From an uncultured Candidatus Saccharibacteria bacterium (GTDB taxonomy: Bacteria; Patescibacteria; Saccharimonadia; Saccharimonadales; UBA4665): a stretch of 64,000 nt of DNA. The translations under genes were made by a program, and so were the position numbers. A model generated the notes under the pieces. The model did not search any database, had not been told where the DNA came from, and saw nothing but the letters and a program-made list of their open reading frames with translations. Shown here one piece after another: positions 2,829 to 20,006 of this stretch (position 1 is the stretch's first letter; each line of letters opens with the position of its first letter). Where the stretch lies: positions 496,001-560,000 of the forward strand of contig CAMLQK010000001.1 of the NCBI GenBank assembly GCA_946482285.1. The letters run 5' to 3'.

Positions 2829-4736
2829 GGTGACCTCGACGTAAAGAACCCACCTGACCAGCTAATCCAAAACCTTGTGCTAACGAATGATAGTAAGCGG
2901 TTGGTGTGGCGCGGGGTGGGTGAGGTGATTCGCGATACGGTGAAAGTGCCGCTCAATCGGCTGCAAATCAACGTTGTCGACTTTGGCGCCAAGGGTGACG
3001 GCGTAACGGATGATACCAACGCAATACAGTCAGCTATCGACTATGCGGCACGGGGAGGAATAGTCCATATCCCAAGGGGGACTTACCGCGTGCGTGCGCT
3101 CAAGGTACGTAAGCATGGCATTACTATTACCGGCGAAGCGCGCTATGGGACTAGGTTGGTGCGGCATAGCGGCACCGAACCACTACTGGAATTAAACGGT
3201 ACGGCTTCGCTTGACGGGCATATCAAGTACTGTTCTATTACGAATATTACGCTGAATGGTAATTACAAGCCAGGTGTTTTGCTGCGATCAGTTTTTGCGG
3301 ATAATTTCATATATCGCGACGTAAGTTTTGTGAATTGTGATAGCTTATCGGCTGACTTTGTGGAGGTCTGGGACACGCGATTTTATAATTGCAGCTGGGA
3401 GGGTTGTGGCTCGGTGGAGGAGCCTGCAACGTTATTCCGCAACAGCATGCCACAGGGCGAATTTGGATATGGCGACGACAATACTAACCAAATCCACTTT
3501 TTGGGTTGCCGGTGGGAGAGCTTTAAGAACGGGGCTGTCAAACTCGATGGTGCTGCCAACAATTCCAAGCGACTGCTGAATGGCATTTTCTTTGTATCGT
3601 GCAAAATGGAAACCCGTTATGCGGCCGGGCCGGCCTTTCAAATCATGGACGGGACAACTATTGTATTTGTCAACCAAATGTATATTGCTTTGATGGCGGT
3701 CAGCCCGGATTTGGCAAAGCCATTAGACGCCATTGAAGATCGTGGTTCCCATATCTTTATGACGGATGTGTACGTGCAGTGGGGTGAGGAGCTGAGTATT
3801 GCCCGATCACTAGTGCACGTATACCGGAGTGGTCCGCACATGTACTACAAGCTGGACACCTACTATCCCCTGGAGGATCCAACGGAAGCGGCAATTATCG
3901 CTGAGCCGGAGGCTGAAGATGTCATGGTGTCGTGCAATGTCGTTAACCGCGGCAAGACAACGATTGGTGATGTGTCGTCGATTATGGTAGCAAGCCCGAG
4001 CAAAGGCGTGACCATACCGCTCGATTCGACAGGTATTTTCAGGATTACATCGAATGCCATCAAAAAAGATATATTCAAGATCGACAACAACACTACCCGG
4101 CCTGCTGTACATATGCTGAACGGTATGGATACCGTAGGCTTTTCCGATAGTTATGTTACTGAAAAATGGCGTATCATCGGTGCTTCAGGCGCAGCACGCT
4201 TTGCAGGCGGCAAGTTCCAGATTGAAGGAACTAAAGGGTATGTAGGGCTTAATACGGCGCCATTTACAGGTATTGCCATGCTTATCCGTGCTGCCGCAGG
4301 TAGCGACCGGGGACTTGCCATAGTCAAACCTTCGAACACAGCATTCAATAGACTGTTGGAATTCCAGGATGAAAAGTACAGCATCCAAGGTATGGCTATT
4401 GATGCTAATGGCCGTCCACAGGCCGTCGGTACTCCTGCAAAAGTAAGCAAGGGGGTTCAAGTGAACTATGCAAACCCACGGATCCAGGTGCGCGATATTG
4501 CCGGAAATGTCACTGCCGTTGTTCGTCCTAATCCAACTGCGCCAGGTACGGTTGCGACAATTACATTTTCTAAACCGTACGCCGATGTGCCGCTGACCAT
4601 TTCTATTGACGACCAGTCAACTACGAATGCGGAATTATACGTGTCAGCGCGAAGCGCAAGCAGTTTTACCGTATCTACCCGTATTGCCCTGACACCAGGG
4701 ATGACCATTAATTTTGATTATTTAGTGATAGCGTAA
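2697..4736 (+). CDS. Pectate-lyase-superfamily beta-helix protein, twin 1
   Basis: The 679-residue protein starts with a soluble module (MARLPVPGSDNDIW, residues 1-45) that I associate with tail-fibre-like and beta-helix proteins. A Pectate_lyase_3 opening follows (VDFGAKGDGVTDDT, about 94-107), then a long right-handed beta-helix with GTYRVRALKVRKHGITITG turns, and a C-terminal beta-rich module (about 600-679). There is no signal peptide or membrane segment, so the export route is unclear. The ribosome-binding site is AAGGA. The next gene is a full-length paralogue starting 24 nt downstream. Adjacent flippase and pyruvyl transferase genes suggest action on, or attachment to, surface glycan; enzymatic activity is unproven. 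Confidence 0.75.
   Translation: MARLPVPGSDNDIWAELLNEFLRVSHNEDGTQKVDSIPPHSVELGDLDVKNPPDQLIQNLVLTNDSKRLVWRGVGEVIRDTVKVPLNRLQINVVDFGAKGDGVTDDTNAIQSAIDYAARGGIVHIPRGTYRVRALKVRKHGITITGEARYGTRLVRHSGTEPLLELNGTASLDGHIKYCSITNITLNGNYKPGVLLRSVFADNFIYRDVSFVNCDSLSADFVEVWDTRFYNCSWEGCGSVEEPATLFRNSMPQGEFGYGDDNTNQIHFLGCRWESFKNGAVKLDGAANNSKRLLNGIFFVSCKMETRYAAGPAFQIMDGTTIVFVNQMYIALMAVSPDLAKPLDAIEDRGSHIFMTDVYVQWGEELSIARSLVHVYRSGPHMYYKLDTYYPLEDPTEAAIIAEPEAEDVMVSCNVVNRGKTTIGDVSSIMVASPSKGVTIPLDSTGIFRITSNAIKKDIFKIDNNTTRPAVHMLNGMDTVGFSDSYVTEKWRIIGASGAARFAGGKFQIEGTKGYVGLNTAPFTGIAMLIRAAAGSDRGLAIVKPSNTAFNRLLEFQDEKYSIQGMAIDANGRPQAVGTPAKVSKGVQVNYANPRIQVRDIAGNVTAVVRPNPTAPGTVATITFSKPYADVPLTISIDDQSTTNAELYVSARSASSFTVSTRIALTPGMTINFDYLVIA
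4128..4225 (+). repeat. 98-bp identical island, copy 1
   Basis: Identical to 6176-6273 in the paralogue, although flanking sequence is clearly diverged. A third island near the 3' ends (4635-4683 and 6683-6731) has one mismatch in 49 bases. Confidence 0.95.
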
Positions 4737-14574: not shown

Positions 14575-14662
14575 GGGCGAGTGGCGGAATTGGTATACGC
14601 GGCGGACTTAAAATCCGCTGGCTGAATAAGCCTTGAGGGTTCGAGTCCCTCCTCGCCCACCA
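14575..14662 (+). tRNA. tRNA-Leu (TAA)
   Basis: Class II tRNA: acceptor GGGCGAG/CTCGCCC, anticodon stem GCGGA/TCCGC with loop CTTAAAA (anticodon TAA), long variable arm (TGGCTGAATAAGCCTT), T arm GAGGG-TTCGAGT-CCCTC, discriminator A and encoded CCA. Confidence 0.97.
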
Positions 14663-14769: not shown

Positions 14770-14782
14770 CGAGTCCCTCCTC
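14770..14782 (+). repeat. 13-bp copy of the tRNA-Leu 3' segment
   Basis: CGAGTCCCTCCTC is identical to 14642-14654 in the T arm/acceptor of tRNA-Leu. It lies just before the orphan cassette region and may be a remnant attachment site. The remaining sequence from 14699 to 14818 shows nothing else I can name. Confidence 0.5.
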
Positions 14783-14818: not shown

Positions 14819-15001
14819 TATAATTACTATTGTTTTGTTGAGTTATTCGCTCCAAAGCACATTTACAGACAGCTAGAAGTAGCAAAACGAGAAGTTTGCC
14901 CATGCCACGTGGCCAAACTTCTCGTTTTGTGTTCAGGATACACAGCCTAGAAACGAATTTAGGTGGCACGTCACGCCAACGGGAAGAATGAGGAGCCACG
15001 T
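14819..15001 (+). promoter_or_regulatory. Cassette A promoter and structured leader
   Basis: -10 TATAAT at 14819-14824. First hairpin P1 at 14840-14852 (GAGT/GCTC). Conserved box AAGCACATT at 14855-14863. The 5' arm GACAGCTAGAAG at 14868-14879 is the exact reverse complement of 16124-16135 in the gene's own 3' UTR. Hairpin P2 is a perfect 16-bp stem, 14883-14898 with 14914-14929. Hairpin P3 at 14928-14944 is TGTGT/ACACA with loop TCAGGAT. A GAGGAG ribosome-binding site precedes ATG 15002. Confidence 0.85.
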
Positions 15002-16045
15002 ATGTGGGCTGTCATTTTTACAGCGCTGCTGATAGCAGGGGCTGTACTTGGATGTGTGGTGCTTATGCGCCGCACATCCAGCGTCGAAGCTGTTCCGGCG
15101 CCTGCACCACTGCCGGTGTCCAGTGTTGACATCGCTGCCCAGGCTACCAAGCTGGCAGTGCATGCCGACAAAATGGTGGTCGTACTGCCACGCTCAATGT
15201 CAGACCTCCATTTGCTGCTGCACTTCGTACTCGCCGACATTCTGCGCGAAGGTGCCTTCAAGGACCGGGGAGTTGCGGTATTTGCTCAAATGGACGGCGT
15301 GCTATTGCAGCGCATCCAGGTCCTTCGCGCTGCAACGGGCAAGCGAATGGCAGGTGTTATTCAGTATCGTGCATCCGCGTTCCAAGCCATGCAGCATGGT
15401 TCGCCCGAAGACCAGGCTCGCGCTACCCGCGAGTTCGTCAGGAGGCTTACGCCGGCTGACGCCCAGCTTTTGCTGTCGGCCTGTGTCGCTGGCTACCAGG
15501 TATTTGCGGATGTGCATCAAGCCTATGTACAAGCCGGGCTAGCGCAAGCAGGCAACATGCCGGAGCTGCCGTCGGCAACGATCATTCAGGATTTGTGCCA
15601 GCAGGCGAGCTGGAACGAGTTGTCGCTGGCGATATCCCACGACCTGAAGGTTCCGGCACAGGGTTGGCTGCATATGGCCCACTTCATGATGTGCCTGTTC
15701 GAGCGTACGTCGGAGCGTATTTTGCTTCCACCACTGCGCCAGGACATGACCCTGACCCTGGGCAACCTAGCCCGTCGTTTTTCTCGTGTTTACAGCGATG
15801 CTGAGATGGACGCGGGAAGTTCCTTTGGGGCACTGGTGCATGCGCTGGCGTTCCTGCCGGGCTTCCGGGTGCTGGTATGGAGTCATGCCGACTTCCTGCT
15901 GCAAGTGCTGAACCTGGCAATCCGCCAGCATCAGGGCATTGACGAAGAAGTGCGGAATGCCGAAGTCATCATGAGTCTTCTGGAACAGATCTCGGCAGTC
16001 CAATACGACGCAACTCATGACTATCGTCCTCAGGGCGATCTCTAA
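15002..16045 (+). CDS. Orphan cassette protein A, N-terminal membrane anchor
   Basis: The protein is 347 residues long. ATG 15002 is chosen over GTG 14963 because GAGGAG sits at proper distance and the protein then opens directly with its membrane helix (about 1-22, ending LMRR). The positive residues after the helix suggest an outside N-terminus and a cytoplasmic C-terminal domain. The rest is predicted helical, with no domain I recognise. Short patterns (QVLRAATGKRMAGVIQYRAS; HFMMCLFERTSER) faintly resemble cassette C. The coding sequence is visibly GC-richer than flanking genes. It has its own promoter, leader and 3' element. Function unknown. Confidence 0.75.
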   Translation: MWAVIFTALLIAGAVLGCVVLMRRTSSVEAVPAPAPLPVSSVDIAAQATKLAVHADKMVVVLPRSMSDLHLLLHFVLADILREGAFKDRGVAVFAQMDGVLLQRIQVLRAATGKRMAGVIQYRASAFQAMQHGSPEDQARATREFVRRLTPADAQLLLSACVAGYQVFADVHQAYVQAGLAQAGNMPELPSATIIQDLCQQASWNELSLAISHDLKVPAQGWLHMAHFMMCLFERTSERILLPPLRQDMTLTLGNLARRFSRVYSDAEMDAGSSFGALVHALAFLPGFRVLVWSHADFLLQVLNLAIRQHQGIDEEVRNAEVIMSLLEQISAVQYDATHDYRPQGDL

Positions 16046-16060
16046 CGGAGTCGCTCCCGA

Positions 16061-16141
16061 GGGACGGACATGTCAGATCGGTACAGAGCCGCACATGCCA
16101 GCTCTGCTGTGCTATCTCTGTATCTTCTAGCTGTCCGTCCC
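16061..16141 (+). promoter_or_regulatory. Cassette A structured 3' UTR element
   Basis: GGGACGGACA (16061-16070) pairs exactly with TGTCCGTCCC (16132-16141). Nested stems TACAGAG/CTCTGTA and GCACA/TGTGC lie inside. The segment 16124-16135 (CTTCTAGCTGTC) is the 3' arm complementary to leader arm 14868-14879 and overlaps the local closing stem, so the two pairings compete. Confidence 0.8.
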
Positions 16142-16214
16142 ACCCCTGTTTTGGTAGTAAAAAACCGCTATATGTCAAAACACAAGCAGTATTGCATTTA
16201 GCATTAAAAAGTGA

Positions 16215-16417
16215 TATAATTATAAGGTTTCGTTAGAGTGCAGTTTTAGTACTCCGAAGCACATTTCCAGATAGACAGAAAACTCAAGGTGAGGCATGCT
16301 GCCATAACAGATTGTGGCCGCTTTCCTCATCTTGTGTTCAGAATACACAGACACTCAGTTTTTTCGGACATTGTCCGAGAGTGTCGGGGAATCCCTGCAA
16401 TAAACACGGAGTGCACC
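16215..16417 (+). promoter_or_regulatory. Cassette B promoter and structured leader
   Basis: -35-like TTGCAT 17 nt before -10 TATAAT (16215-16220). P1 at 16236-16254 (GAGTGC/GTACTC). Box AAGCACATT at 16257-16265. The 5' arm CAGATAGACAGAA at 16268-16280 is the exact reverse complement of 17192-17204. P2 pairs 16285-16294 with 16325-16334 (one G:T). P3 at 16333-16349 is TGTGT-TCAGAAT-ACACA. A further hairpin at 16351-16384 contains CGGAC/GTCCG. The ribosome-binding site CGGAG precedes ATG 16418. Confidence 0.85.
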
Positions 16418-17062
16418 ATGTTGTCTCCCGATCCCATGATCAACGGGGGAGTACTCGCCTTCTGGGTGGTCTTCCTGCCGCTCGTCGCACTGTACTGCCG
16501 GCAGATCTACATCGCCAACCGCAACACACCGGCGCCGACGGAGCCCGAGCAGGTGGACCTGCAGACCGTTCCGCCTATCGCGGACACCCAGCGTGTTCTT
16601 GACCACGCCCGGACCATCCGGCTGCCGCTCAGCTGCAAGCAGCAAAGGGAGCTCCTGACCTTCGCCATTGCCCTTTGCGGCATCGGCAAGCTCGCCCAGC
16701 ACCCCGTCTTCAAGGCGATGCGCAGTACGCACGCCAAGGAGCTCCGCCTCTTCACCGCCGCGTTTTCCGACCGGCTGGTGGCACGTTTCGCCGGCATCCA
16801 CTTGCCGATCGACTACACCGATGCGGACGGCCGCCTCGACTTCACCACGGAGGATGACCGTACCGCCGGCGTCATCAACAAGGTACTCGACAACCCCGAG
16901 CTCACCAAGGTGCTCTGCGGCATCTGCAGCATCTGCAACTGGGAGCTGGTCTCGGTCTACCGCGACTACTGCGAGCAGCCCGGCCGCCCCCAACAGTTCA
17001 GCCTGATCGAGACCGGCGTCTTCGACGCGCTCTTCCGGCACGCTGGAGTCCCTGCTGCCTGA
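16418..17062 (+). CDS. Orphan cassette protein B, N-terminal membrane anchor
   Basis: The 214-residue protein starts at ATG 16418, placed 6 nt after GGAG and downstream of the leader hairpins; longer upstream frames run through the structured leader and are not used. A membrane helix spans about residues 10-30 (GVLAFWVVFLPLVALY) and is followed by a helical cytoplasmic region. Patterns QHPVF (compare AHPEF in C) and NPELTKVLCGICSICNWELVSVY (compare QPEIVGLLMEAADTI in C) hint at a divergent shared family. It has the strongest GC-rich codon use of the group by eye. No known domain recognised. Confidence 0.72.
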   Translation: MLSPDPMINGGVLAFWVVFLPLVALYCRQIYIANRNTPAPTEPEQVDLQTVPPIADTQRVLDHARTIRLPLSCKQQRELLTFAIALCGIGKLAQHPVFKAMRSTHAKELRLFTAAFSDRLVARFAGIHLPIDYTDADGRLDFTTEDDRTAGVINKVLDNPELTKVLCGICSICNWELVSVYRDYCEQPGRPQQFSLIETGVFDALFRHAGVPAA

Positions 17063-17115
17063 ATGCAATACCCAACCCACTAAACTGAGGTGGTGACACC
17101 CGCGAGCCTGGAGCT

Positions 17116-17204
17116 CAGATAGATAGAATGGTTATGAACCGTTTCAAGTCTGCCTGGGCATCCGCCTGCGCGTCTTAAACGTATTCTGACCTTCTGTCTA
17201 TCTG
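17116..17204 (+). promoter_or_regulatory. Cassette B structured 3' UTR element
   Basis: CAGATAGATAGAA (17116-17128) pairs with TTCTGTCTATCTG (17192-17204) with one wobble. Inside are hairpins GGTT-ATG-AACC and CGTTT/AAACG. The same 3' strand pairs perfectly over 13 bp with leader arm 16268-16280, so the local strand is a near copy of the leader arm (12 of 13). Confidence 0.85.
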
Positions 17205-17206
17205 AC

Positions 17207-17258
17207 TCCCTCCATAAACGCATAGTTATGCTGATGAGCTGTGGGACAGCGAAAGGGA
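17207..17258 (+). ncRNA. Hammerhead self-cleaving ribozyme (type III layout)
   Basis: All core parts are present in order. Stem III TCCCT (17207-17211) pairs with AGGGA (17254-17258). H17 is C at 17212. Stem I CATAA (17213-17217) pairs with TTATG (17226-17230). The catalytic core CTGATGA is at 17231-17237, stem II GCTGT-GGG-ACAGC at 17238-17250, and GAAA at 17251-17254. Predicted cleavage is between 17212 and 17213, 8 nt after the cassette B 3' element, which would give that transcript a defined 3' end. Stem III can extend with one mismatch. Confidence 0.9.
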
Positions 17259-17283
17259 ATTGGTAAGTATAAACTTTTTGTGG

Positions 17284-17467
17284 TATAATAATACCTAGTT
17301 TCAGTATGGCCAACCCATACTCGAAGCACATTAGCAGACAGAGCAACAGCAATTATGAGGGACCAGTCCATCTTCGGTGGTTTGGTCCCTCATAATTGTG
17401 TCAGATACACATTATTCTCTCGTATTGAGAGCGGCATCCTTGCCGGTGAGGAGAACGGAACGCATCC
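17284..17467 (+). promoter_or_regulatory. Cassette C promoter and structured leader
   Basis: Extended -10 TGGTATAAT with TATAAT at 17284-17289. P1 at 17303-17321 (AGTATGG/CCATACT). Box AAGCACATT at 17324-17332. The 5' arm GACAGAGCAACA at 17337-17348 is the exact reverse complement of 18505-18516. P2 is a perfect 16-bp stem, 17350-17365 with 17383-17398. P3 at 17397-17411 is TGTGT-CAGAT-ACACA. Two more small hairpins follow (CTCTC/GAGAG, CGGCA/TGCCG) before GTG 17468. Confidence 0.85.
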
Positions 17468-18424
17468 GTGTCCAGTCATTTGTTCGCCCTGATCTTCACC
17501 CTTGTTGTGGGCGGAGTGATCCTGTGCTTTGTCGGCCGCCGCCAGCTACGTTTGGACGCGCTGAAGGGTGCGGAGCTGTCGGAAGCCTCTGGCTTCAGCC
17601 CGCGCCACGGTTTTACCGTTCCGGACTACGTCCGCCAGAACATCGTCACGAATGTCAGTGAGGCTGAGCGCATCGCGCTCGCTCGCTTCATTCTGGTGTA
17701 CTGGGGGATGGTGCCGAGCAGCTGGCGTCCGACGCGCTTCTTCCGCGCCCAGCAGATGCAGGTCGAGATCGCAAAGGTCTTCGGCCCCATGACTGGTGCT
17801 GATGGAGCAACGCGCTTTGCCGCCGGCCAGCAGATTCGCATCCTCGCCGCTCACCCGGAGTTCCTGGCGTACAGCATCCGCTATGCGGACGTCATCGTCA
17901 AGGCCTACCGCCACTTCAACCACTTCCGTCCATTCCGTCTGGGCGCTTCCTGGCTGCCCGAGGACGCCACCATCATTGCCCTGCAGGGCTTCGCCAACGA
18001 GTGCGCCGCCGCTTCCAAGCTTCGGGATGAGGTGCACGCCGCGTACGGCACGTCCCACGAAGAGGCAGCCCTGCTGCTTCGCTACACCCTGGTGATGTGC
18101 TTCGGCTCGACCCGCGCCATGGCGCCCGTCATGTCCGAACTCTGGACCAAGCAGGTGCAGCACTTGGCATCACAGCTTGCTTGCATCATCGTGCAGCTGT
18201 TCGAGGTCAAAGCCTCTCGTTTCACGGCGGACGCGCTTGAACCCCACATCGACCAACTGGCTTACCAGCCGGAGATTGTAGGCCTGCTCATGGAAGCTGC
18301 GGACACCATTTCGCACCACTACGACCAGGTCTGTGACATCGCAGACTGGCACAACCTCGACCCGGGCACTGGCCTGATTGGCCGCCTGGTCGCCCACAAG
18401 TCGTTGGCCTACATGGGCGGCTGA
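17468..18424 (+). CDS. Orphan cassette protein C, N-terminal membrane anchor
   Basis: The 318-residue protein has a membrane helix at about 4-23 (LFALIFTLVVGGVILCFVG) followed by RR, suggesting a cytoplasmic C-terminal domain. That domain is helical and unrecognised. The start is GTG 17468; GAGGAG lies 14 nt upstream, longer than ideal, and no better in-frame start exists before the hairpins. Patterns IRILAAHPEFLAYSIRYAD and YTLVMCFGSTRAM resemble stretches of A and B weakly. Strongly GC-rich coding sequence. It has its own promoter, leader and 3' element. Confidence 0.72.
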   Translation: MSSHLFALIFTLVVGGVILCFVGRRQLRLDALKGAELSEASGFSPRHGFTVPDYVRQNIVTNVSEAERIALARFILVYWGMVPSSWRPTRFFRAQQMQVEIAKVFGPMTGADGATRFAAGQQIRILAAHPEFLAYSIRYADVIVKAYRHFNHFRPFRLGASWLPEDATIIALQGFANECAAASKLRDEVHAAYGTSHEEAALLLRYTLVMCFGSTRAMAPVMSELWTKQVQHLASQLACIIVQLFEVKASRFTADALEPHIDQLAYQPEIVGLLMEAADTISHHYDQVCDIADWHNLDPGTGLIGRLVAHKSLAYMGG

Positions 18425-18433
18425 CAGCTGGAC

Positions 18434-18525
18434 GGAGGAAACGAGAGAGGGATGCAGATCAGGCATTTGTGTTGTTGGCGCATGCCACCACATCGTCGTA
18501 TCTGTGTTGCTCTGTCGCTTTCTCC
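18434..18525 (+). promoter_or_regulatory. Cassette C structured 3' UTR element
   Basis: 18434-18449 pairs imperfectly with 18510-18525 (GGAG..AAACGA..GAG against CTCTGTCGCTTTCTCC). Internal stems CAGAT/ATCTG and TGGC-GCAT-GCCA are present. The arm TGTTGCTCTGTC (18505-18516) pairs perfectly over 12 bp with leader arm 17337-17348 and overlaps the local stem. Confidence 0.78.
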
Positions 18526-18604
18526 AAAGCATAAGAAATATAAGGTTCTTGTAACGTTGTCTTTCTACTTCTTTGAGTATTAGCAAAAACCAAGGAAAGT
18601 CCGC

Positions 18605-18686
18605 TATAATTACACCTGTTACACAGAACAATGTATGTTCCGTAGCACATTTCCCAAACAGAACACATTGAGACGAGGTGATGAGA
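18605..18686 (+). promoter_or_regulatory. Cassette D promoter and short leader
   Basis: -10 TATAAT at 18605-18610. P1 at 18626-18640 (GAACA/TGTTC). Box AGCACATT at 18644-18651. The 5' arm CCAAACAGAACACA at 18654-18667 is the exact reverse complement of 19886-19899 (14 bp). P2 and P3 are absent; instead the ribosome-binding site GAGGTGAT (18675-18682) follows almost at once. Confidence 0.8.
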
Positions 18687-19799
18687 GTGTCTAGTGCCTG
18701 GATCCAGCCCGCCCTGACTGTGCTGTATTTCGCACTGGCCATGGGCGGCGTGTTGTTCCTGGCTCGCCTGCGGTCGCGCAAACTTGCTGCAACAGCAAAG
18801 CAAGGGAGTGCGCCGGCTACAGACGTACTGATGCCCGCTCCTATCTGGGAATTCGCCGGAAGAGCTGTGGCAGGGTATTGCTCCGTGCTGCAGCAGTTCG
18901 GTGCACCCGATGCGTTCGAGCACTATAACGAAGATCGGGCGCCGGAGCTACCGATTTGGGCGACCAGATTGCGGCTTAGCCTGAGTGTTGACGCCCGAAT
19001 GGCCGTCATTAGTACGCTCTTGGCGACAGCTGGCATCGGCATGCACCGAGACCTGGTGGATCGTACTAAAGCCACCTACGAAGACGGCTTGCATGATCTG
19101 ACGGTGACCATCCGTAATCTCTACTTCGAGCATGCACCCTGCAAGTACAGCTATGAGTGGCTGTTGCAGGATCCAGCGGCCTTGTTTGGCCTGGTGCGCC
19201 ATGCGCGCGATTCCGAACTGGGCGACCGAATGGTTGCGGCTGCGGTTTACTACGCCGAGGTCTTCAACCATCTGGTTTTCGAGCAGAGCGAAGCGGGTGA
19301 CCCTGCAGAGCGATTCCGTATTGTCGGCGAAGAGACGCACGCGTACTTGCTGCTACTCAACAGCATTGCTCGGTCGCCCGACGAGCACGTGTCCGTTCCC
19401 CTTGAGGCTTGGCAGCAGCTTGCGCGTTTGACAGCGCAGTTGCAGCCCGTAGCGGATGATGCCGAGACTGGCAGGTTCTGTGCGCGCCGCGACGAGATCG
19501 TCTATCTGTACTTCGACGAAGAGCTGCCGGCTGATCGCCAGGAGGAACTGATTGAGCTGCTGACGGCCGACTTGTCTTTTCGGCTGTTGGCCCTGGATCA
19601 CTTGCGCTGCATCCTGGAAGTCGTCCAAGGCTACCGCGTGGCCTCGAGTGTCGCGTCATATTCGACGCTTCGACCGTTTGTCAGGCAGCTCAGGGATCTG
19701 GCAGGAATCCACGATACCTGTCGGTATGCCGTGGGCCTGGCTGAGTACGAGCAAGCCACCCGAACCGCACATGCACACGAGGAACGGTTCGATGCTTGA
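18687..19799 (+). CDS. Orphan cassette protein D, N-terminal membrane anchor
   Basis: The 370-residue protein is read from GTG 18687 because the perfect ribosome-binding site GAGGTGAT overlaps the earlier GTG/ATG at 18678-18683 and is correctly spaced only for 18687. A membrane helix spans about 6-26 (PALTVLYFALAMGGVLFLARL) and is followed by basic residues, then a long helical domain. No family recognised. Less GC-rich than B and C but more than flanking genes. It is last of the four cassettes; its 3' element lies 20 nt downstream of the stop. Confidence 0.72.
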   Translation: MSSAWIQPALTVLYFALAMGGVLFLARLRSRKLAATAKQGSAPATDVLMPAPIWEFAGRAVAGYCSVLQQFGAPDAFEHYNEDRAPELPIWATRLRLSLSVDARMAVISTLLATAGIGMHRDLVDRTKATYEDGLHDLTVTIRNLYFEHAPCKYSYEWLLQDPAALFGLVRHARDSELGDRMVAAAVYYAEVFNHLVFEQSEAGDPAERFRIVGEETHAYLLLLNSIARSPDEHVSVPLEAWQQLARLTAQLQPVADDAETGRFCARRDEIVYLYFDEELPADRQEELIELLTADLSFRLLALDHLRCILEVVQGYRVASSVASYSTLRPFVRQLRDLAGIHDTCRYAVGLAEYEQATRTAHAHEERFDA

Positions 19800-19819
19800 C
19801 GTGCAATCGCTGGTGGGTG

Positions 19820-19901
19820 GGCCGAACAGAGCTTCTAGAGCGGTAGAGGGTCAGTGGCCGCCGCCATTATCTCTTTATTATTCTCTGTGTTCTGTTTGGC
19901 C
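19820..19901 (+). promoter_or_regulatory. Cassette D structured 3' UTR element
   Basis: GGCCGAACAGA (19820-19830) pairs with TCTGTTTGGCC (19891-19901, one wobble). The arm TGTGTTCTGTTTGG (19886-19899) pairs perfectly over 14 bp with leader arm 18654-18667. As in A-C, the 3' strand is shared between local and end-to-end pairing. Confidence 0.82.
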
Positions 19902-19981
19902 TAACCCCGCTGTTATTTCCGGAAAATTGTTGTATACTATTAGTAATGAAGTACTGCCTACAGCACTCGATAATGCGTATG

Positions 19982-20006
19982 ATGCCCCGGCGGGCATAGT
20001 TTTTCT
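19982..20006 (+). terminator. Hairpin terminator upstream of metG
   Basis: ATGCCC-CGGC-GGGCAT followed by AGTTTTT. It may end the cassette D transcript or a short RNA from the TATACT box at 19933-19938. Confidence 0.65.

Follow-up and report, generated by a model that had tools for sequence, protein, structure and literature searches.

Single-gene units in Saccharibacteria whose 5' and 3' arms are complementary: a candidate mRNA wrapper with pairing ends

The window analyzed here, a 64,000-nucleotide (nt) stretch of contig CAMLQK010000001.1 from an uncultured Candidatus Saccharibacteria bacterium, contains between positions 14819 and 19901 four consecutive single-gene cassettes (c1 to c4), in each of which an arm in the leader (A) is complementary to an arm in the 3' untranslated region (UTR) of the same gene (A'). 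Every cassette opens with a TATAAT box, followed by a hairpin (P1) whose 3' side extends into AGCACATT, and arm A begins 3–5 nt past the last base of AGCACATT, as an earlier, preliminary description of this DNA had reported. The order of parts is -10 box, P1, arm A, usually a hairpin H and a strand M, open reading frame (ORF), M', A' and 3' end (Table 1). In c1 to c3, arm A is followed by the long hairpin H and the motif TGTGT..CAG..ATACACA, part of which forms strand M, and the leaders of these three cassettes fold better than their own shuffles. The features found beyond the arms are the nested helix M:M' (c1–c3), hairpin H and a hammerhead motif located behind A' in c2.

In all four arm pairs the two strands are perfectly complementary, over 12, 13, 12, and 14 nt (c1 to c4), at the positions given in the preliminary description. 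They are also cassette-specific, as it claimed, with longest matches of 6–8 nt between each leader and the other three 3' UTRs, and its argument that chance does not account for them is upheld by 500 mononucleotide shuffles per cassette, in which the longest match reached 10, 10, 9, and 10 nt. Partition-function folding of the predicted full transcripts (986–1313 nt) gives mean arm pairing probabilities of 0.955, 0.981, 0.983, and 0.893.

Related units were sought with three models. A leader model built from c1–c3 (R1) matches 21 of 392 relatives of G001, and a second leader model built from 25 leaders, c1–c3 included (R2), matches at least 56 of 392 related genomes, with 102 matches listed; the c4 leader has no R2 match at E ≤ 0.5. 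A tail model built from 15 hammerhead tails, that of c2 included (R3), matches at least 91 of the 392, with at least 150 matches listed. Since the best 9 or 10 first-look candidates were scored per genome, the counts are likely lower bounds, and the E-values are rough. In a phylum-wide sample, 7 of 379 genomes match, all of them already among the relatives. Applied to 98 fetched sources, after removal of three duplicate loci, R2 and R3 returned 118 and 77 matches at E ≤ 0.5, from which 104 leaders were kept (eight on the opposite strand of a leader, one duplicate, and five other weak matches dropped) along with 70 tails (two duplicates, two cut at the locus end, and three weak matches dropped). 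Across the 104 leaders, TANNWT matches are most frequent at -12 (39) and -13 (20) relative to the leader start, with a further 15 at -17 and 9 at -14, while control sequence 300 nt behind the leader, which is GC-richer, has none at -12 or -13. This preferred distance points to a primary 5' end located at P1.

The arms covary in these relatives. Over 56 leader–hammerhead pairs, the helix formed with the unit's own tail averages 10.4 nt, compared with 7.0 nt for other units' tails, and the summed length of 584 compares with 396 (sd 12) under permutation, a value that 0 of 10,000 permutations reach. Scored against a 13-nt consensus, on which 51 of the 56 pairs could be placed, 504 arm positions are unchanged, 53 have changed on both sides and still form Watson–Crick pairs, 28 are G–U, and 78 are unpaired; shuffles yield 11.0 compensated positions (maximum 24) and 128.8 unpaired ones (minimum 114). 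The inner helix M:M' scores 6.91 versus 5.45 permuted (0 of 5000), with a control piece at 4.96 versus 4.95, and hairpin H, scored in 79 of the best 80 leaders, covaries strongly (8.43 versus 4.81 permuted, a value that 0 of 5000 permutations reach). Arms that vary in relatives without compensating changes were an outcome that the preliminary description had set against its proposal; the covariation of A:A' and M:M' instead supports panhandle pairing. Of 35 eligible transcripts the first 26 were folded, and 19 of these give an arm pairing probability above 0.5. A:A' is the most constant part of the architecture; H, M, and the hammerhead motif are frequent yet optional.

About half of the units carry a hammerhead motif in their tail. 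In the 98 fetched sources, such a tail follows on the same strand with no leader intervening for 56 of 104 leaders, and among the genome-wide matches listed, a tail follows on the same strand within 2.5 kb for 48 of 102 leaders, against a single opposite-strand tail when 2.5 kb to both sides of the leaders are counted. A hammerhead descriptor finds 20 motifs in 358 kb of cassette loci plus the window, one in 1.41 Mb of methionyl-tRNA synthetase (MetRS) loci, and none in five shuffles. The motifs, including that of c2, contain the type III core CUGANGA...GAAA, a U–H cleavage site, and three stems opening at stem III; in 15 tails the stems covary and the core is kept, except that in one of the 15, L122, both the core and stem III are broken. 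The Rfam family Hammerhead_3 matches at L111 with 38.1 bits (E 1.7e-6) against a gathering score of 48.5. A hammerhead motif is also present near 4625 (+) of L005, in a MetRS neighborhood with no leader match there.

The 48 leaders that lack a hammerhead tail retain the complementary arm in most cases, with an exact own match of at least 10 nt in the next 300–2000 nt for 38 of them and a cross frequency of 0.106. In some of these units, terminator-like hairpins with T runs were seen by eye behind the arm, for example in L184, L201, L202, and L216. Conversely, twelve hammerhead tails without a strong leader match were taken, of which L218 (a wrong-side stretch) was left out; in 5 of the remaining 11 (L154, L215, L221, L223, and L224), an upstream arm of 11–14 nt exceeds all 60 shuffles, and four of these five arm-bearing units lack H, as c4 does. 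The hammerhead motifs and terminator-like hairpins lie behind A', so transcripts would include the 3' arm instead of ending before it, the outcome that the preliminary description had set against its own proposal.

Table 1. Predicted parts of the four cassettes in the window, with the basis of each assignment.
Feature	Position	Strand	Basis or remark
c1 -10 box TATAAT	14819..14824	+	sequence
c1 P1 hairpin, predicted 5' end	14831..14859	+	fold
c1 5' arm A	14868..14879	+	exact match, shuffles
c1 hairpin H	14883..14929	+	fold
c1 inner strand M	14935..14942	+	pairs with 16119-16126, 8 bp, one G-U, 3-nt overlap with A'
c1 ORF, 347 aa, hydrophobic segment at the N-terminus, no family match	15002..16045	+	
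c1 3' arm A'	16124..16135	+	exact match
c2 -10 box	16215..16220	+	sequence, box spacing
c2 P1 hairpin	16228..16259	+	fold
c2 5' arm A	16268..16280	+	exact match, shuffles
c2 hairpin H	16285..16334	+	fold, H covariation
c2 inner strand M	16338..16346	+	
c2 ORF, 213 aa from given start	16421..17062	+	
c2 M'	17181..17189	+	9 bp, all Watson-Crick
c2 3' arm A'	17192..17204	+	exact match
c2 type III hammerhead motif	17206..17258	+	descriptor; R3 67.4 bits (c2 among R3's 15 building sequences)
c2 predicted hammerhead cleavage	between 17212 and 17213	+	
c3 -10 box	17284..17289	+	sequence, box spacing
c3 P1 hairpin	17298..17327	+	fold
c3 5' arm A	17337..17348	+	exact match, shuffles
c3 hairpin H	17350..17398	+	fold, H covariation
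c3 inner strand M	17402..17408	+	pairs with 18498-18504 (7 bp)
c3 ORF, 318 aa	17468..18424	+	one non-identical relative, 62%
c3 M'	18498..18504	+	adjoins A' directly
c3 3' arm A'	18505..18516	+	exact match
c4 -10 box	18605..18610	+	sequence
c4 P1 hairpin	18617..18647	+	fold; no better than shuffles, z 0.71
c4 5' arm A	18654..18667	+	no H; Shine-Dalgarno-like GACGAGG close behind
c4 ORF, up to 373 aa, start codon uncertain	18678..19799	+	
c4 3' arm A'	19886..19899	+	exact match

Together, these features place the four genes in a family of units whose 5' arm is complementary to their 3' arm, and it is rather probable that their transcripts lock into a panhandle after the tail has been trimmed, in many members likely by the hammerhead. 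The most likely reading is an mRNA wrapper common to these units, with ends that lock onto each other. Transcription would start at P1; an active hammerhead would set the 3' end a few nt behind A', and units without one would undergo termination or processing close behind the same arm. The paired ends would meet in the cell as a panhandle that shields both mRNA ends and brings the stop codon near the start, and the likely benefit would be a protected, stable mRNA with closed-loop translation. If so, the arms would be part of a general mRNA format around many unrelated proteins rather than a regulator of one gene, and the ribozyme would be one of several tail makers in a conserved 5'/3' RNA wrapper. 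Such a wrapper would also give bacterial hammerheads, and perhaps RAGATH-10, a biological setting in reduced epibiont genomes, the functions of both being unsettled, and it would be a natural design for long-lived bacterial mRNAs.

Several results weigh against this model. Within the window, c2 alone has the hammerhead motif, and c1, c3, and c4 show no hammerhead by descriptor and no obvious terminator by eye; the c2 motif is absent from the Rfam listing even at E ≤ 10, and no hammerhead in 20 loci reaches the Rfam gathering score. Cassette c4 lacks both H and M, as do some other units. Exact arms of at least 10 nt occur in just 32 of the 56 hammerhead pairs (26 distinct sequences), the 51 placeable pairs include 78 unpaired arm changes, and the arm pairing probability is 0.5 or lower in 7 of the 26 folds. 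Covariation of P1 is modest (4.59 versus 4.23 permuted, 0 of 5000; best 90 leaders), and the permutation tests ignore the common descent of the units. The stretch searched for arms of the non-hammerhead leaders may enter the next unit, where the longest arm match of L110 indeed falls, and 6 of the 11 hammerhead tails without a strong leader match have no upstream arm above shuffles.

Long-distance pairing between mRNA ends has a precedent in the type I toxin systems hok/Sok and aapA/IsoA, in which the 3' end of the toxin mRNA pairs with its 5' part, an arrangement kept across related species (PMC6733600). The units described here resemble them at the sequence level, and the statement in the preliminary description that no bacterial mRNA family of this design had been described was too strong, given these mRNAs and the sub-threshold RAGATH-10 matches in the leader. 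By analogy, the end-paired full-length mRNA could be a translational lock, stable but silent until 3' trimming or cleavage turns translation on, as the hok and aapA mRNAs require 3' processing for translation (PMC6733600). The good folding of the c1–c3 leaders relative to their shuffles fits such a lock, as does RAGATH-10, weakly matching the leader, in which the H 3' strand pairs with a downstream GAUGAGGAG-like stretch. In hok and aapA, however, the final fold hides the toxin Shine-Dalgarno sequence until the 3' end is trimmed, whereas the arms of the present units lie away from it, at a distance of about 100 nt or more in c1 and c3 and likewise far in c2, with the c4 arm directly preceding it. 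Because the arms are positioned before the Shine-Dalgarno sequence, A:A' pairing itself leaves the ribosome site uncovered, and A' leaves it free in all four cassettes. Between the H 3' strand and the Shine-Dalgarno region, pairing is no stronger than under permutation (5.30 versus 5.28, n = 79), and for want of covariation a Shine-Dalgarno switch operated by this strand is not supported. A hammerhead cut behind A' would moreover leave the arm in place, and the ORFs, at 213–373 aa in the window, are larger than the small hydrophobic toxins of those systems and mostly unrelated to one another; about half of the tails also bear a hammerhead motif, unlike hok and aapA. A translational lock is therefore considered unlikely, though it is the best placed of the alternatives.

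The relationship of the leader to RAGATH-10 (RF03147) was assessed in 14 genomes, which give nine matches at E ≤ 1, eight of them on R2 leaders; RAGATH-10 may thus be a piece of the units' leader seen in isolation. The gathering score is reached in none of the 14 genomes (best 33.5 bits versus 41.2), and 5 of 14 control genomes have such a weak match (E ≤ 1) as well, so that these matches carry little weight by themselves. The outer helix of RAGATH-10 to the downstream GAUGAGGAG shows no covariation excess over permutation, and, unlike the present units, RAGATH-10 has neither arms nor ribozyme. RAGATH-18 RNAs guide the IS607 TnpB, while most RAGATH members are without known function (PMC11061315). 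Hammerheads of prophages flank single genes of non-constant identity, for which single-gene mRNA processing has been proposed (Perreault 2011, PMC3088659). The motifs reported here likewise lie near genes of varying identity but differ in that one type III motif per unit follows a leader-complementary arm, each unit has its own promoter box, and the neighbors in inspected loci are, by eye, chromosomal housekeeping genes. A literature search that lacked most subscription papers found no description of hammerheads in Saccharibacteria, TM7, or Saccharimonadia, nor one of RAGATH-10.

Hammerhead motifs in coding units of about 1 kb are also features of Obelisks, viroid-like RNAs, and retrozymes, and the units could accordingly be a mobile RNA-based element that uses arms and ribozyme for replication or transposition. 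Their patchy positions agree with mobility. In 80 MetRS loci of relatives there is no leader match, a result on which an ancestral unit at the MetRS locus was rejected; the best relative of the window's own MetRS is 77% identical and comes from a Saccharibacteria metagenome-assembled genome, which makes Saccharibacteria the likely origin of the window. In L114 a unit separates an rluB-like gene from a der-like one, and the corresponding interval of L110 is a 747-nt gap that gives no match; both loci have the gene order rluB-der-pth-dprA (read by eye) and hammerhead tails behind the dprA-like gene. Unlike Obelisks and viroid-like RNAs, however, every unit studied exists as a DNA copy with -10 boxes before the leaders, and folding of the ORFs does not, on average, exceed that of synonymous shuffles (mean z -0.74 for 26 ORFs, range -3.93 to 1.48, with four below -2.4), so that a viroid-like rod is not supported. 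Among the 14 listed of 31 neighbor families common to the loci, chromosomal functions but no mobility gene were recognized by eye. Positions 14832-20000 have no blastn match in phages or plasmids, a strict DNA pattern has none in genome or viral contigs, and two further exact patterns have none in viral contigs. A mobile element is on this evidence improbable.

Slightly less probable again is a covalently circular mRNA, in which ligation would join the 3' end made by the hammerhead to the 5' end kept close by the panhandle. Hammerhead cleavage leaves a 2',3'-cyclic phosphate, which is a substrate for RtcB-type ligases, and panhandle geometry would place both ends together. The -10 box spacing instead suggests a primary 5' end, no ribozyme is assigned to the leaders when the window region is scanned against Rfam at E ≤ 10, and RtcB was found in 1 of 16 cassette genomes compared with 9 of 14 control genomes, which disfavors RtcB circularization. 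The preliminary description had allowed for either a closed or a panhandle RNA; covariation in relatives supports paired ends and hence the panhandle, and the box spacing and scarcity of RtcB speak against the circle. Chance or local inverted repeats without function could be invoked for any one arm pair, short by itself, but are practically ruled out by the own-only matches, the covariation, and recurrence in 56 of 392 genomes.

The ORFs enclosed by the candidate wrapper are diverse. Seven homologous pairs, chosen from nine small families after leaving out one pair seemingly out of frame and one within-genome pair, differ at 392, 319, and 500 first, second, and third codon positions, and the third-position excess, seen in 6 of the 7, indicates that the ORFs are coding. 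In an automatic choice of ORFs, in which some frames are likely wrong, 83 of 104 are singletons. Among 5.8 billion proteins, c1, c3, and c4 have near-identical counterparts and c3 has one more distant relative (62%), with scoring of the best 7998 candidates for c1 and the best 7997 for c4. None of the c1–c4 proteins matches a Pfam or NCBIfam family at E ≤ 1 or a PHROGs family at E ≤ 0.01. The predicted structure of the c3 protein is all helical and weak (pLDDT 65.8), and neither its fold (E ≤ 0.001) nor the sequence profile (E ≤ 1) finds a match in the PDB. A hydrophobic 18-mer occurs in 27 of 101 ORFs. Ten ORFs of relatives were scanned at E ≤ 0.01, eight of which have no Pfam family; the two with known domains are L192:1357-2274 (-), a Band_7/SPFH protein that also matches phrog_200, and L174:1324-2265 (-), with DUF2807.

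Codon usage sets these ORFs apart from their surroundings. GC content at third codon positions (GC3) exceeds that of neighbor genes in 24 of 27 ORFs (L108–L127 and the window, c4 not included), by a mean of +0.176 (Wilcoxon p 1.3e-6) and, at the extreme, with 0.95 versus 0.37 in L112. In ORFs chosen automatically from 12 genomes, the fraction of C-ending codons is 0.82 for cassettes, 0.68 for tuf, and 0.50 for neighbors, and that of G-ending codons 0.77, 0.48, and 0.45. High expression alone was rejected as the source of this bias, since tuf hardly raises G-ending codons while the cassettes raise both classes, and optimization for the cell's own ribosomes is thus insufficient by itself; the bias may stem from a foreign origin or from adaptation to another translation system. 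Those Saccharibacteria that have been cultivated live as epibionts on Actinobacteria (PMC10633639). The orphan ORFs in their end-locked wrapper might be mRNAs delivered to, and translated by, a high-GC actinobacterial host, and translation there would account for C- and above all G-ending codons beyond the level of the cell's own tuf, but such delivery is viewed as a long shot, on a par with the circular mRNA.

Two minor observations concern individual loci. L124:9655 (+) and L125:8105 (+) form an AT-rich pair with short leaders that lack H and a 93-aa protein that is 81% identical between the two genomes. Just before c1, a 12-nt stretch from the 3' portion of tRNA-Leu (14643-14654) is repeated 128 nt downstream (14771-14782) and could be the remnant of an attachment site.

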